From Polytrichum commune (Eukaryota; Streptophyta; Polytrichopsida; Polytrichales; Polytrichaceae), in contig OX485808.1 of the NCBI GenBank assembly GCA_950295325.1, positions 22,154,527 through 22,218,526 of the forward strand: a stretch of 64,000 bases of DNA, read 5' to 3'. Positions within the stretch are counted from its first letter, which is position 1; each line of letters opens with the position of its first letter. Positions 774 to 10,100 of the stretch are shown here, in pieces. The notes beneath the pieces were generated by a model, which was given only the letters and a program-made list of their open reading frames with translations, was not told the DNA's origin and made no database searches. The translations under genes and the position numbers were made by a program.

Positions 774-1002
774 CTATGATCGGGGAGAACCGGCAGCTAG
801 TTACAGATGAACTGGTGGAGTTTGAGAAATAACCGGTTGAAGTTCAAGACTGCAGGAAAATTACCGGTCGTTTCAGAGGAATTTATAGAATATACCCCAA
901 TTTAATAAAGGAAAACCGGAGGATGTGAACATGTAACCGGTTGGACTTGCAAACACTAGGATCTCAACCGATTAGTATGCCCAAAAATCTCCCCGATCAC
1001 TG
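774..1002 (+). mobile_element. hAT-like MITE A1 (229 bp)
   Basis: The ends are near-perfect inverted repeats around TGATCGGGGAGA and TCTCCCCGATCACTG. The flanks 766-773 (ctccacag) and 1003-1010 (cttcacag) match at 7 of 8 bases. An 8-bp duplication with CA(G/A)TG-type ends is characteristic of hAT transposons. The interior is rich in ACCGGTTGA-type motifs and is non-coding. It matches the complement of A2 closely by eye. Confidence 0.9.
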
Positions 1003-1241
1003 CTTCACAGACAATGTTGACTGTTGGATTCAATGGGAGAGTCATGCGGATTTGTATTGTGTTGGCATGGGCTCCCCAGCATGAGTTTGTGTTTCTTGTG
1101 TTCTTTGGCATAAGCATCAGTGTGCGGGGAGATTTTTGGGCATCATCGGTGAAGATCCTTGTGTTTCCAAGTCCAATCGGCGTGTACATGTTGTGATCTT
1201 TTGATTGTTGTTTGTTAATTTGAAGTATGTTCTATAGATTC

Positions 1242-1468
1242 CAATGATCGGGGAGATTTTTGGGCATTATCGGTTGAGATCCTAGTGTTTGCAAATCCAA
1301 CCAGTTACATGTTGACATCCTTCGGTTTTTTCTATATTAATTTGAGGTGTATTTCATAAATTCCTCTAAAGTGATTGGTAATTCTCCTGAAGTCTTGAAC
1401 TTCAACCGGTTATTTCTCAAACTCAACCGGCTCATCTGTAACTAATTGTCGGTTCTCCCCGATCATTG
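1242..1468 (-). mobile_element. hAT-like MITE A2 nested in A3 (227 bp)
   Basis: It has perfect 15-bp inverted ends, CAATGATCGGGGAGA, and a perfect 8-bp target duplication, ATAGATTC at 1234-1241 and 1469-1476. The flanking sequence on both sides is family A itself, so this is an insertion of one copy into another. The perfect duplication suggests it inserted later than A1 and A3. Confidence 0.95.
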
Positions 1469-1536
1469 ATAGATTCTTCTAAAAAGTCGGGTAATTTTCT
1501 AGAGGTCTGGAACATCAACTAGTTCATATGTAACTA

Positions 1537-2434
1537 CACTAATGCCCCCTTCCCACTTGACTTTACCAAATAACCAAAGTATTTCCTAAAAACCAGGTAA
1601 AGCTCCCTCGGTTATCACGGAGGCATCCGTCTATCCCGATGCACCTACAAGAACTTGCTCTGGAGACCATCGAGTAGGTTTTAGTTGAGTAGCTTTCACA
1701 CATGTTCGTTGGTTTATCTACCAAGCGATGACATGTTGGATAGTTTTTGTACCGTCCCAAATGCCTTACTACTCATCTATCTTACCGTCGGTTTTTGGTA
1801 ATGCAGCTCCTCGTGCCCTCATAGCTAAGACTAAAAGCAACCAATCACAAGGACGGGAGGCGACACTTTTAAGAGTCCTACATTCTTGCCTCATGTCTAG
1901 GTACCGATGGGAGGGTCGGTGCTTGAGGCTTAAAACCTCCACTTTTAAAGCATGCCACATCATTTGCCAACTAGCCTCGGCACTAGATAATGTCGATGGT
2001 GTGAAGGCCGTGTTTTTAGAACCAACTTTTAGGCTTAGCTAAAGGCAAGTGGGAAGGGGGCATAAGTACGGTATTTAGTGTCATATGGCATTTAATGTCA
2101 CTGCGGTAAAAGAAATTATTGAGACTTTCTTTGAATAAGTTTACAAATATTGTCATGGATGGTGGGTGAGTTCATCCATTGGCCAAAACCCTACCTTCTC
2201 TTTGTCAGCAACTTGTGATGAAACATTGTCACAGATGATAGAAATTTAGATGAAATTTTCACTTGGTAAGTGACAATAATTGCAACACTGTAAATCTATA
2301 ATCCCCCTAAAAAATCACAAGGAATGACAAATGATGTTGGGTTAACATTTAGTGTTGGTGACACTATACTGCGGTTCACCAATTAGTATGAGCAAGACAA
2401 TTAGAATTGGTGACACTAAATATCATATTTAGTG
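1537..2434. mobile_element. Palindrome-ended MITE B1, split by element C1
   Basis: After removing C1, segments 1537-1542 and 2066-2434 join to give CACTAAGTACGGTATTTAGTGTC at the left end, with CACTAAATATCATATTTAGTG at the right. Both ends are near-palindromic. The flanks are TA on both sides (1535-1536, 2435-2436). The 375-bp reconstructed length agrees with B2 (367 bp). Insertion was into the distal part of A3. The family is non-coding; TA duplication resembles Tc1/mariner-type targeting, but the superfamily is not settled. Confidence 0.85.
1543..2062. mobile_element. Terminal-inverted-repeat element C1 (520 bp) inside B1
   Basis: The terminal inverted repeats are TGCCCCCTTCCCACTTG and its complement, flanked by TAA on both sides (1540-1542 and 2063-2065). 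Removing the element and one TAA restores the left end of B1. A TWA 3-bp duplication is typical of PIF/Harbinger elements, so C1 may be a non-autonomous member. The open frames inside are unconvincing. It is the youngest layer along this insertion path; no second copy was seen in the window. Confidence 0.85.
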
Positions 2435-2468
2435 TAGCTACCGGTTCTCCATGTTCATTGATGAGCAT

Positions 2469-3416
2469 GCTTGGTGTCCATGCCTTACACCAAAAGTATG
2501 AAATGAAATGAAATTGATTTTGAAGTCTAAGAAACCAAAAACGCTAATGTTACTAAAAATACATCAGGATGGTTTCAAACCGGCTAATACTTGCTTCAGT
2601 ATACTTACACCGGAATGGCAACAGTGCATGCTCATGGCTCTTTTCCTTTCTCTAATTGACCATCTACTTTTTTTCCACTTTCTGAAGATGGCAACATACT
2701 CTACAGCTTCCATGTCAACTTTCACCAGATACGTCAACAAACAAATGCAAAACCCAAATAACAAACAGGGCATCGGGCATGATATTGGAAGTCCACACAG
2801 TCCGGGGTTTTTAAGAATGACATGAGCTATCAACAAAGCAAACACAGCACTTTGATTTTCAGCACAATGTCACACTTGGAAGATCCAAGTAGAAATAGAC
2901 AAACTAAGACAAATTCAAGTGGGCATTACAGCTGCAACCTGGCACCCAAACAAACCACATCCGAAAGAGATTGAACTTTTGAGAGCTCAGGATATTAGCT
3001 CAGGTTACAGGTAGCCAGGGATACACAAAATGACTGCACAGTGAGCATGCTGAGACAGGGAAATATTGAACAAACAAAACAAATCAGGATCAATGGACCT
3101 ACTCTTTCCCCCATTACCACACCTCAAATCATAGACTTCACATTGAAATTGGCCGATGGTCAACTATCCCAGTCCCTACAGAGAATAGATTCTGCCACTT
3201 CCGCTCTTACAATTTAGTTGAAAATGAGGCACTCTTTGTGTTGGAGTGTCCTCTCAGCAACTCCACCTGAGATTAGTTCCCTTCACTATTTGAGAGTCTC
3301 ATGTCTTTCTTCCAATTGGACCATCAAGTTGATATTAGCCTCCCCACGGAGGCTACTGCACTTCACTAATCTGAGGAATTAGCATGTTTGGCCCCATCTT
3401 GATGTACGCCTTTTGG
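2469..3416. other. Unassigned sequence
   Basis: Between the nested MITE cluster and element F2. The overlapping open frames at 2508-2845 on both strands show no domain. No gene recognised. Confidence 0.4.
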
Positions 3417-3632
3417 CTTCCCGGACTTTATAACTCATTTAATTTAATTCATTGGGACATTTCATCAAAAGTCAGCCCCTTATGATTTTTCATTGGTTGT
3501 TTTGCATACAAAAATCAACAATTTCTTCCCGGACTATATAACTCATTTAATTTAATTCATTGGGACATTTCGTCAAAAGTCAGCCCCCTATGATTTTTCA
3601 TTGGTTGTTTTGCATACAAAAATCAACAATTT
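3417..3632. repeat. 108-bp direct tandem duplication
   Basis: Two head-to-tail copies, 3417-3524 and 3525-3632, differ at about three positions. The near-identity means the duplication is much younger than the surrounding diverged element F2. Confidence 0.92.
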
Positions 3633-4182: not shown

Positions 4183-7100
4183 TTAGAAGAAGCCGAAACC
4201 CTTGCTGGGTGCAGACGCAAAGAGACTATACTCTGCGGACGCCAAATTTGGTTTCACAACCCCAGCAGCAGCTTGCTCATCCAACCCTGATGCTTTACAC
4301 CGAATTTTCTCTGGAAGAACACTTTTTGATATGTTCTCCGAAGAACTATTATCACCCTTCGAAACCTGTATGGAGTTCTCATTCTCTTTACTACTGCCTC
4401 CGGAGATCGGCCAACCCGAGTGGAATAAAGAGAAATCTGATATTTTTGGATCAATCTGCCCTGTCTCTTTTTGGGCATTCGGCATCGCCAAAGCTCCATT
4501 CGCCAAAGAAGAATGCTCACCAGGAGCATTTGTACTTGCATCTGCAGTCGCTGGGATTGCCTCCAGCAAACTGGTCGAGGGCAACCCTGGAATCAATTGC
4601 ACAAGACCCCGATTATCCAGACCCCCCCTTCCTCCCGGACCTCCAAACCTCGACAAGAAAACCTGTTGATGTTCTCGAAACTGCACCGAGTTCAACCCAT
4701 TGGGCATTGCAGGCAGGCGCCCGACACCAAGCCCCACCGGCGCCGTTTGAAGCGACCCTGGAACACCCATGGACATTGGAGGAATTACACCCATTGACAC
4801 ACCGATACCTCCTGGTCCAGAAATGAGGAATCCTCCAGGCTGAGGGAGCGGTAACACACCGTTCCGTCCGCGTGCTGCCCAGGGTCCAACTTGGAAGTAC
4901 CCAAACGGCTGCTGCTGATGGTGCATGCTCATCGGCCCACCATGCAACATGTTGGGAACTTGTTGCATGCTATGTTGTTGGACATGTCCTTGTAACGGTA
5001 ACATATCCGTAAACGCATACATGCCCCCCTTGTGTTGTGGTCGCACAGGATTCTCCTGGGTATAACTCATTGGCATATGACCATTCGAGTGCAGATGTTG
5101 TTGTGGAGGCGGCGAAGATCCATTCCCCAAAGGAATTGAGTTGTCCACATGATGCAACTGTGGGGTTGAATCCAACCCAGGTAATGCCATACTAGCCGTG
5201 CCTTGTGTTGACACCGGCCTTGACACATGTAAAACACCTTCTCCCTCCAACGGTTTATGTGAACCTGGAGTACTAACTCTGGGTTCAACAACAGACATGG
5301 CAGCACCTTGCTCACTTGTCTGCTGTAGAACTAATTCCACTGATGCTGTAGGTAAACCCATGCTTGAAGAACACTGGGGTAATACCACCGCCGGTGCAAG
5401 AGAATTACCACTTTTGGCTGCAGAAGCTCCGTGACCTCCATCTCCAGTGGGTCCAGCCAATACAAGAACTGGTATTTTCACATCGACCGCATGACCAATT
5501 TGTCCATCCTCTCTTGCAGCCGGCACCAAAGTGACAGGAACATCTTCTTTAGAGCTTTCCAATGTGTTCATACTGGATAACCTGGGTGAAGAGACTTTTG
5601 ACAACACAGGGGTCGCAGTAGTGGTTGATGGCCTTGATGATGCTTTTGAGTTTCGTAAAATGTCACTCTTCCCATGTCCACTTTCTGATGAAGAGTGGCA
5701 GCCAACTGGTCCTGATGCCTTCACTGCTGATCCTGCTACTGCTGGTCCACTTGCATTTGGTGTATTTGATGTTGCTCTCGGAGTCCACACGGGTTTCATT
5801 GTTACAGGCAAAGTCGAGCCATTCTCAGACCCATGATGACCTGTCACCCCATTACAAGAACCTCGCAAACTTCCATGGTACCCGTTTGACATCCCAGGAA
5901 GCATCTCCATCGAGGAGCTTCTCAGGTACGATGGTTTTGGTGTTTGTGTCCTCTCCGTAACAAATGACCTCTCTTCCCTCCGCTCTGAGTTCGGACAACT
6001 ACTACCTACCTTTTTCTGAACATGTTGTTCTTGTGCAGACCCAGCAGGATCAACATCTGCAACTACCACCCGAGGGGAGCCTTTTGATGTGGAATCCTTA
6101 TGACTACTTGGATTTATTTCTCGAACCCCTACGACTCTACCAGGAACTCGTTGACCCGCCTTCGACCGGGAGCCCCGCGCACAGGATTGGATATCTTCGT
6201 GTCTATTATAACTAAGATGATTATGCGATTGAGTTCGAGACCAGCTTTCAGCCCGTTTCATCACCGTTTCCATCTCAGCTTTATGAAGTCCATTCTTCAG
6301 GTGACCCTGCGGGCTAAATCCACGTTTGTTTTCAAGGGAAGGTGCAGCAGATCCTACCCTGCGGACTGTGCCATTGTTAGCTTCCACAGACAAAACTGAT
6401 CCTCTTCTACAACTTGCACTTGAATAATCTGCTGCCGCTGGTCCTTTCCGACCCTGTGTCCTCCTTTTCGCAGACTTCGACCGTTCTACTATAAATGCAC
6501 CATTTCCGTCCCTTAAACTTAAGGCATCATCAATATCCTGTGCAAGAGTGAAAGCTTCGTGCTGACTTGAGCCTCCATTCTCACTGTCGAAACCATCCGC
6601 CGACGGCCTTGCTTCAACCATGTCAGGAGATGAAGGCCTCGCAGACATGCTGTCCTCACTATTATTACCTTCAGTTCCTTCTATTTGACTGCCTGAGCTG
6701 CTCTCCCTCTCCTCTTCAGGACCTGAGTACAGAAGCATCGTATAATAGTTTCAATACTTGTTCAGTAAGTAAACATAGCATTGCTAAGCATGTGTAAGGG
6801 TGTTCTCTTTCTATTCTAGCTTCAAGAATAAATTTCCAAGAATCAAGCTCCTTGAGTACATGCATGAATGCCAAGCATAGTCAAGTGGCAAGCTCTTGTT
6901 AGTCAATACCTCATTTTACCTATCTTTGGACAAAGCCTTCTACATCTACCAAGATTCAACTTTACAAATTTTATCATTCTCCATTTACAAATTTTATCAG
7001 TAAAAGTATGATATTACATTTTGTCAGGAGTTGGTTGTTTCAATACAACACCTTCCATGTTCTCCTTAGATTTCAGTGCATGCTCGGAGGCAGTGGTTAC

Positions 7101-10100
7101 ATTTGAATGAAGAGCAATCTATATCCATTCATTGAAGGTCAATCTCATTTTGGCATGCCAAGAGGTGCTAAAATGAGTTTGGCCCTCAATGAACCAACAG
7201 AGATTGCTCTTCATTCAAATGTAACCACTGCCTCCAAGAATACACCACAAGTGATTTTGTATGCAAAACAACCAATGGAAAATCAGAGGACCAACTCCTG
7301 ACAAAGTGAGTTAAAAGATGACTCTAGTATATTGATTTTTTTTTAAATCCCAAGACTAACAATTATATCCAGCACAGGAAGTCCTTGCAAATCAAATATT
7401 CTCCCGACCTGGTGGATATTTGATTCTCTTTGAAGTCAGAACATCGGCATGTTATGATCACATTACTATCTCCCATGACAGATCAAAGCATACCAGTAGA
7501 TGGAAATGCACAAGGATGCTAAATCAGCATAGATACAAATTACATGCACTAGTTCAAAAAATAATAATGTTCCACTCACCTAATATGGTTGATGTAAGGC
7601 AACCATTTGAATTAATGGGAACAGGAGTGCTATTATTTCTGTTGCCCTTCTCCTTGCTTTTTAACTTCTCCTTCCTTCGTAGTTTCTTCTCCTTTTCCTT
7701 TTGTTTTCTCCGCTCCCGCCTCTCCTCCTCTTCCCGCTTCTCATACTCTTCTTCCTCTAAGAGCTTGTTCTGGTGACACAAACAACACTTATTGTAAGTG
7801 CACAAAAGTAACTCTTTGAATTTCACATCAACTACATGAGAAAGTCACAGGGAAATGATTTCCAGATGTAAAGATGAAAAGACGGCATACTACAAACATG
7901 GGTATTAACTTGTAAGTGTTGTGACATATCATTCCCTTTATATTGTACTATAGTGGATAGTAAATCAAGAGTTACTGAATTGGAGATACTTTGCTGAACA
8001 ATTAACATGGTAAGTATTTTTATTTCTGACAGGCTTCAATTAAAGGCTCAATGTTTATGGAGTTCAACAACCCACTCGCATCCTCGGAAAACAGTCACCA
8101 TGAAGACAACACCAGACTCAGAAATAGAAAGAGGTTCATAGGCATTGATCCAGATAACAGACCTGTTTTTCCAGCGTCGTTATCTCTTTGCAAGCTACAC
8201 GCACACGCTCTTCAAGTAAGCTCAATGCTAGGCATACAAAAATACTATGGGCGTTCTGTCGTGCTGTGCCCTCTCTGAAGGCCTTTTCAACCTGTCAATT
8301 TAACAATGACGAAGGAAAAGTCAGCAAAGCTAAGACATAGTTGACAACGATGTACTTTTGAGAAAGTCCACTACAGAAGGAAAGCACAACATGCTCAACA
8401 TCATTCTTCTTAGTCATGTCACCAGAAATCTTCTTTTTGGATAACCCAAAGTTGAAAGTTTGAGCTACCTCATGGAGGTCGCTTATGATTGTGAAGAGTT
8501 TTTGTTAATGGGCCCTGACCCAGTTGGGCTTTCAAGAATTCCTTGGTTTTTCATTAGATTTTCCAACTTTGGACCATCAACCAAATCATTCAGTAAGAAG
8601 ATTAAAGTCACTGATGTCACTAGCAATGACTAAAAAGATTGATGTCATTGACTTGCAAGTGAAATCCAGAGTCCATGCATAGAAAATACCCTGTCACAGG
8701 ATTAAAAAGCAATGCTTCACCTCAATCAGGAAAACCAAGACAACAAAAAGAGTCTATTCTTACAGCTCAGGGTAGATTCCAACCTTATTCCAAATCTCAC
8801 ACAATAACATGCAGCAGAGCTCAACTACCCATACAAGTCTACAGGCCAGAACTACTATCTCTCCAAATTTGGAGACCACCACATACGTCATGTAGCATTC
8901 AACTGAAAGGTGAGAATATGTAAAGGTACAAAGATGTTAAACTTAGATAGCCCCATGTCTTGAACCTGGAGTTTCAAGCTACAGCGAACATACTCTTGAT
9001 TTTAATTAGTCTCATATATGGACAACTGGTCCATAGTTAACCGACCTATTCAAAGCTGTCATTATAAGTCAAGGAAATATTGATAGCCCATTAGTTCAGA
9101 GAACTTTCAAGAGAATCGCTTTCTAGACTGAACTTTCAACTTTGGGCTCCCAAAGAATCACTTCATACAAATCTACTAAACCTCCACTGACATATCCTCT
9201 GGGCGAGAGCTCAAAGTAAGATAACAAAGGCAATCAAGACAGTATCTGCAAATAAAAGGACTTGGTTCGTTGAGCTACTCTGTAAAGCAAGTGGCTGCTT
9301 CTTTTATGATCAAAATCCTCAAATCAGTAGATCTACCCTCAAGGACAAATTGGGAACATCAAACATGAAGATGTTATTGAAACTTCTCACTACCTGCTCT
9401 TTGAATATAACAGTTGCAGCATCCAACAGGAAGTCACGTGCAAGCTCAGGGCTTTTTGCATGCTTTTGAGGACGAGAACCTTCACCTTCATAGTCATTGC
9501 CATCTTTGTCAATGGCATCTTCATCCTGCAAACAAAAAAAGAAGAAATGTCCCTCAGCTTCTAATGTATTGGGGTCTCCAAAAAATCTGAATATTATTCT
9601 CCCTTGGAACTTTACTCATTGTCGCCAGGAGAATCATCTCATTGCAGCAAGATTCATGGAAATTTTGTATCAAAAGCTCTTAACTTAAGTGATAAGATGA
9701 TCTCCGCCTTGCACTGACAAGATGAAAGGATATGGGAGAAGTGACAATTGATTTATGCACTATAATTAAAATTGTTGAAATTTGTTAATAAATCAACATG
9801 ATCTTAAACTTTGAAAATTACACCTCTTATGGATTTGCACGACAATATTCACTAATATGGAGCCAAAACCATCAGATCTTGCAACTCCTTGAAGTCATCT
9901 GTGAGACAGAGAAAGATATGGCTCAATCAAATTCATGACCTCTACTCATGAACACAAGAGTGGCCTAAAGGAACTAATATGCAGGTTCTCTTTGAAATTT
10001 TTAGGTTGAGTGGTCAGAAAGAAATGCTTGTGATAATCATTCCTTTCTCCCTCAATACCCACAAGGTCTGGACTGTTGTTGCACGCCTTATATGACCATG

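Follow-up and report, generated by a model that had tools for sequence, protein, structure and literature searches.

Four nested MITEs of three families in Polytrichum commune, with very probably target-matched landings

Jiang and Wessler reportedly used the nested MITEs of rice and maize in 2001 (Plant Cell 13:2553) to read insertion preference. According to PMC5907723, that study already took nested MITEs as a guide to target preference. PIF/Harbinger elements carry a DDE transposase, leave a 3-bp TTA/TAA duplication and have a target preference that extends beyond it, to 9 bp in plants, and Tourist-like MITEs are non-autonomous deletion derivatives from such elements (PMC2836001, PMC2213677). 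Among the Stowaway-like DcSto MITEs of carrot there is a TA-type family with a nested Tourist-like MITE flanked by a TTA duplication (PMC3695323), and nested LTR retrotransposons also prefer certain regions of their host elements (PMC6911290).

The window analysed here, a stretch of 64,000 nucleotides from Polytrichum commune, had been described in a preliminary description as holding four nested MITEs of three families (A, B and C), and its coordinates and all junctions were borne out when the sequence was re-read (Table 1). The anatomy and the target duplications are directly visible: A3 is interrupted by A2, with a perfect 8-bp duplication, and by B1 at a TA, and B1 in turn is split by C1 with a TAA duplication. 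The number and order of events proposed at that time, with A3 first, then A2 and B1, and C1 after B1, are supported by our analysis. What had been missed is that the landings of B in A and of C in B are recurrent and motif-linked. We consider it very likely that three families of non-autonomous DNA transposons built the nest in four separate transpositions, with B and C landing at sites that match their targets. An A copy (A3) would have landed first and a second one (A2) later in A3 at an ordinary site; a B copy would have landed in the AACTAG site of A3, a close match to B's preferred target AACTAGTT, and a C copy would then have landed at CACTAA in the left terminal repeat of B, one of two mirror-image sites resembling the C target. 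The split of its terminal repeat by C1 would have immobilised B1.

Table 1. Parts of the nest and the adjoining A copy, in window positions.
Feature	Positions	Strand	Detail
A1, complete A copy adjoining but outside the nest	774-1002	-	flanks CTCCACAG / CTTCACAG, 7/8
A3 left target duplication	1110-1117	.	ATAAGCAT
A3 segment 1, hAT-like MITE	1118-1241	+	alignment with 22 A copies
A2 left target duplication	1234-1241	.	ATAGATTC; the final 8 bases of A3 segment 1
A2, complete A-family MITE	1242-1468	+	227 bp
A2 right target duplication	1469-1476	.	ATAGATTC
A3 segment 2	1477-1536	+	closes with AACTA, one half of the B target; TA duplication at 1535-1536
B1, first six bases	1537-1542	+	CACTAA; final TAA (1540-1542) is the C1 left duplication
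C1, PIF/Harbinger-derived MITE	1543-2062	+	520 bp; ends TGCCCCCTTCCCAC...GTGGGAAGGGGGCA
C1 right target duplication	2063-2065	.	TAA
B1 remainder, B-family MITE	2066-2434	+	
B1 right TA duplication	2435-2436	.	
A3 segment 3	2437-2460	+	
A3 right target duplication	2461-2468	.	ATGAGCAT

The host genome comprises 408 Mb in seven chromosome-sized contigs (C1-C7, 42-78 Mb each), and A, B and C are separate families, each abundant across it. Pattern searches returned 13,438 B ends (TACACTAAATATGATATTTAGTGTCA, at most 3 mismatches), 1,226 exact C ends, 143 junctions in which a B end abuts one and the same base of A and 5,571 empty A sites (within 3 mismatches), whereas the reversed patterns used as controls returned 0, 5, 0 and 0 matches, respectively. 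In the whole-element searches with A, B and C, the best 40 of thousands of candidates were scored, so that the matches are those closest to the window copies and the resulting copy counts are lower bounds.

The three segments of A3, when rejoined (208 nt), aligned over their full length with 22 other copies of A, apart from a gap of ~21 nt that had escaped the preliminary description. Rejoined A3 is 79.3% identical to the majority row of these copies. The corresponding values are 95.5% for A2 and 92.9% for A1, and 20 other copies average 97.0%, which makes A3 much the most diverged A copy. For rejoined B1 (375 nt), each of the 20 solo B copies that were tried gave an alignment, at 84.8-87.2% identity, starting at B1 base 1-4 in 17 of them and at base 12-14 in L035, L051 and L052, and the genome contains B and C copies with the same ends as those in the nest. 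Compared with the majority row of the solo copies of its own family, C1 has 94.0% and B1 has 88.5% identity; these values are in keeping with an insertion of C after B but prove nothing alone, since families differ in age. When the right flank (2469-3420) was used as a query, the best 40 of 2,207 candidates matched, besides the flank itself, only another repeat family at 2498-2588 and 3114-3407, and therefore no unoccupied site was found among them that would prove the order directly. The two pieces of this other family lie on opposite strands relative to its genome copies. The window also contains a 108-bp tandem duplication with 97% identity (3417-3632) and an 80-nt inverted repeat, 85% complementary with a 10-nt spacer (7076-7245).

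hAT-type MITEs have 8-bp duplications and short inverted ends starting CAGTG, and the A family resembles them in both respects. A is 227 bp long, and by our own reading of the flanks its 8-bp duplication is 8/8 in 11 and 7/8 in four of 20 solo copies; in the nest, the duplication of A2 is 8/8 and that of A3 (ATAAGCAT / ATGAGCAT) is 7/8 identical. A thus has hAT features, and its mover was probably a hAT-type transposase. A hot spot for A in A was considered and rejected, as the A2-in-A3 junction had a single genome match, the window itself. At one locus (L001), truncated, tandem-like A copies were clustered beside a B and C composite.

B is about 372 bp long and TA-flanked, and its near-palindromic end CACTAAATATGATATTTAGTG, starting CACTAAATATG, forms a palindrome in which the central base alone is unpaired. 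Among 20 solo copies, TA followed the right end in 18 and clearly preceded the left end in 13 by our own reading. The TA target duplication, a feature of the Tc1/mariner-Stowaway group, is thus present in B, including both sides of B1. Stowaway-type ends read CTCCCTC..., and those of B are different. The mover of B may have been a Tc1/mariner-like transposase. Although the ends begin with CACTA, an identity of B as a CACTA element was rejected, because CACTA elements make a 3-bp target duplication and the flanks of B, mostly ...CTA / TAG..., share only TA. No facing pair of B ends 1-8 kb apart, as in a long B element, was seen by eye among the 100 B-end matches listed.

The position of B1 in A3 is one that B uses repeatedly across the genome. 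In 93 different B flanks, the bases after TA were G in 65, T in 60 and T in 72, which gives the preferred target AACTAGTT, and many A copies carry AACTAG[CT]T at one place, where B1 of the window sits. In a motif model, an A site of this reading would receive B at 235-393 times the average insertion rate, which would account for the order of magnitude of the B-in-A junctions observed; many of the listed empty A sites read AACTAACT or AACTAATT and would be weaker B targets. At 15 of 20 B-in-A loci that were fetched, the A body lies beyond B. Relative to A, B had the same orientation in five of the 20 (L078, L079, L081, L089, L094) and the opposite one in four (L075, L076, L084, L087), and the remaining 11 had no clear long match to the interior of the window B. 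At L077, L080, L083, L086 and L091, B-type ends flank an interior unlike that of the window B at the same A site, as subfamilies with common ends. A second A>B>C nest was found at L007, where B lies at the same A base but reversed, C lies in the other of the two B sites (site 2) and further A sequence lies outside; this is the same three-level build reached via different events.

C is about 520 bp long, and by our own reading 15 of 20 loci (L014-L033) carry the same trinucleotide, TAA or TTA, at either end, the 3-bp duplication of PIF/Harbinger elements that is also seen with C1. A long relative was found at L074:519-4866 (G000:C1:15020918-15025265), a PIF/Harbinger element of 4,348 bp that has the ends of the C family and a TAA duplication. 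It encodes a transposase, seen as a 479-aa frame with DDE_Tnp_4 (111.7 bits against a cut-off of 24.8, 3.3e-32), together with a 209-aa frame, a candidate for the second, Myb-like protein of PIF/Harbinger elements, in which Myb_DNA-bind_4 scored 20.3 bits, under the cut-off of 27. Positions 1-378 and 387-520 of C1 match the two ends of this element at 86.8% and 89.6% identity, and C1 therefore appears to derive from such an element by a simple internal deletion. The long element itself sits within a C MITE (L074:147-518 and 4867-5007) with a TTA duplication. At L021 and L108, C copies adjoin another C end at TTA.

The landing of C1 in B1 is also recurrent. In a sample of 98 different C ends from contig C1, the flanks after TWA had G in 63, T in 45, T in 48, T in 63 and A in 49 at +1, +2, +4, +7 and +8, an extended preference around TWA of the PIF/Harbinger kind. 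For PIF itself the target is CWCTTAGWG, a motif that was not found in the literature searched. In the B repeat, site 2 reads GTGTCATA and site 1 reads GTGTA plus the adjoining flank, and the C preference matches these two mirror-image sites in the palindromic terminal repeat of B. Clear inner C/B junctions made up 4 of the 98 sampled C ends, and ~38 junction rows (18 for site 1 and 20 for site 2) stand against the 1,226 exact C ends, two counts of differing stringency; because each insertion has one inner end, the observed share of C insertions in the two sites is roughly 6-8%. Uniform insertion would give 0.17%, and the C motif model, trained without 12 suspected B rows, gave 2.9% with 8 flank positions and 0.2% with 2 or 4. 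The enrichment of C in the two sites is strong; the motif under-predicts it and therefore is not the whole account, and the model is also wrong in placing site 2 far above site 1 (30.2 versus 5.3 times the average), where the junction rows are 20 versus 18.

Two explanations that dispense with a choice of target letters have to be weighed against these counts. A chance pile-up in a repeat-rich genome is hardly credible: all three families are very abundant and A2 in A3 does look like a chance landing, but the 143 B junctions at one A base (a few of the 100 listed being identical in sequence) compare with about 1.3 expected at random TA sites by our own arithmetic, from ~6,700 B copies, that is, half of the B ends, and 69.3 TA per kb, and C in the two B sites likewise far exceeds the uniform share. 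It is rather unlikely that C is guided by the shape of the DNA instead of its letters, through a palindromic B end that extrudes or bends and so draws insertions. The palindrome itself and the shortfall of the motif model, about two- to threefold, speak for a role of shape, whereas the solo flanks of C favour the same letters as those offered by the B end, and the insertions in that end occur at exact TWA positions. We therefore prefer target-matched landings of B and C, with the motif as part of the account for C.

A further reading, that B with C already inside moved into A3 as a unit and C had landed elsewhere, is suggested by the fact that B and C match together at no fewer than 11 other places, nine of them near-complete and two partial, among the best 40 candidates of the whole-element search; a twelfth, L017, was recognised by its junction. 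The preliminary description had treated B1 and C1 as separate arrivals, and although B and C do occur together elsewhere, those copies look like independent insertions and not like a single moving unit. C lies in the left repeat of B at site 1 (CACTAA) in L001, L002, L003, L005, L008, L009, L011 and L017, and at site 2 (ATATTTA) in L004, L006, L007 and L010. A single clade was rejected for the C copies at site 1 (p 2.75e-07), at site 2 (p 0.00885) and at both (p 2.9e-149), and also for the B copies with C at site 1 (p 0.00319). The site-1 label was unclustered on the C tree (9 changes; shuffled mean 8.2), whereas on the B tree it was somewhat clustered (5 changes; shuffled mean 7.2; 12/500 shuffles as low), a weak point in favour of a composite; L008, L009 and L011 belong to a divergent B group outside the coverage of the solo B sample, which was chosen by likeness to the window's B. 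The inner branches of the two trees were mostly weak (starred 4/32 and 3/31), and the nearest relative of the window's B is the C-free L035, its sister with support 100/95.

Because a query with B and C in one order is biased, junctions were searched by pattern. By our own reading, the 25 site-1 matches comprised 18 inner junctions, 3 outer site-2 or uncertain ones and 4 without an exact C end; the site-2 pattern had 61 matches, 22 of them with at most one mismatch, and 20 of these 22 appear to be site-2 junctions. Of these 86 rows, 20 among the closest matches were fetched (10/25 and 10/61), and C was present in 19 (absent in L099) and the B body in 15; the other five may be subfamilies with only ends in common. 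At the 15 readable loci, C had the same orientation as B in 7 and the opposite one in 8, and lay in the left B end in 8 and the right in 6, L106 being irregular, as expected from independent insertions. Moreover, C splits the left terminal repeat of B after six bases and should disable that end. Taken with the two sites and the clade tests, these observations make a moving composite very improbable, and we keep to separate insertions of B and C.

Two of the three internal landings are thus recurrent hot spots, the favourite target of one family being carried by the family before it. It is conceivable, though on balance doubtful, that such nesting is a target-matched chain, in which A bears the B target, the B repeat bears two C targets and a landing of C would disable the B end. 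If so, one MITE family would be a natural brake on another, and the rates of A>B>C nests would be predictable from three motifs and copy numbers. A single nest here leads to a measurable rule, as copy numbers and flank preferences allow one to ask how much of MITE nesting is target choice, and it also carries a warning that a composite seen repeatedly in a genome is not necessarily a single mobile unit.

Among the papers listed in literature searches, no title or abstract dealt with one MITE family inserting repeatedly at the same base of another, which does not show its absence from print. Pieces of 10 and 14 letters from the B and C ends had matches in 59 papers, and the 15 of these that were listed look unrelated by title. 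The kind of thing seen here is known; since nested MITEs and extended PIF-type target preferences had already been described, the locus is a clear, quantified example of it, to which it adds a chain of three levels and the counts. PIF/Harbinger elements and Tourist-like MITEs share with C the duplication, a DDE transposase in a long relative, the target preference and the origin by deletion, whereas C has its own end sequence and a preference seen out to +7/+8 on each side. The carrot DcSto case, in the part of PMC3695323 drawn on, is alike in that a TA-type MITE hosts a Tourist-like MITE; it differs in that single nests were found by PCR and in that the CACTAAATATG... ends of B are not Stowaway-like. 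The nested MITEs of rice and maize, compared here through citing papers, are likewise MITEs inside MITEs of the same and of other families that record target preference, and the moss locus may differ from them in its three-level chain and in the genome-wide counts of hits at one and the same base.
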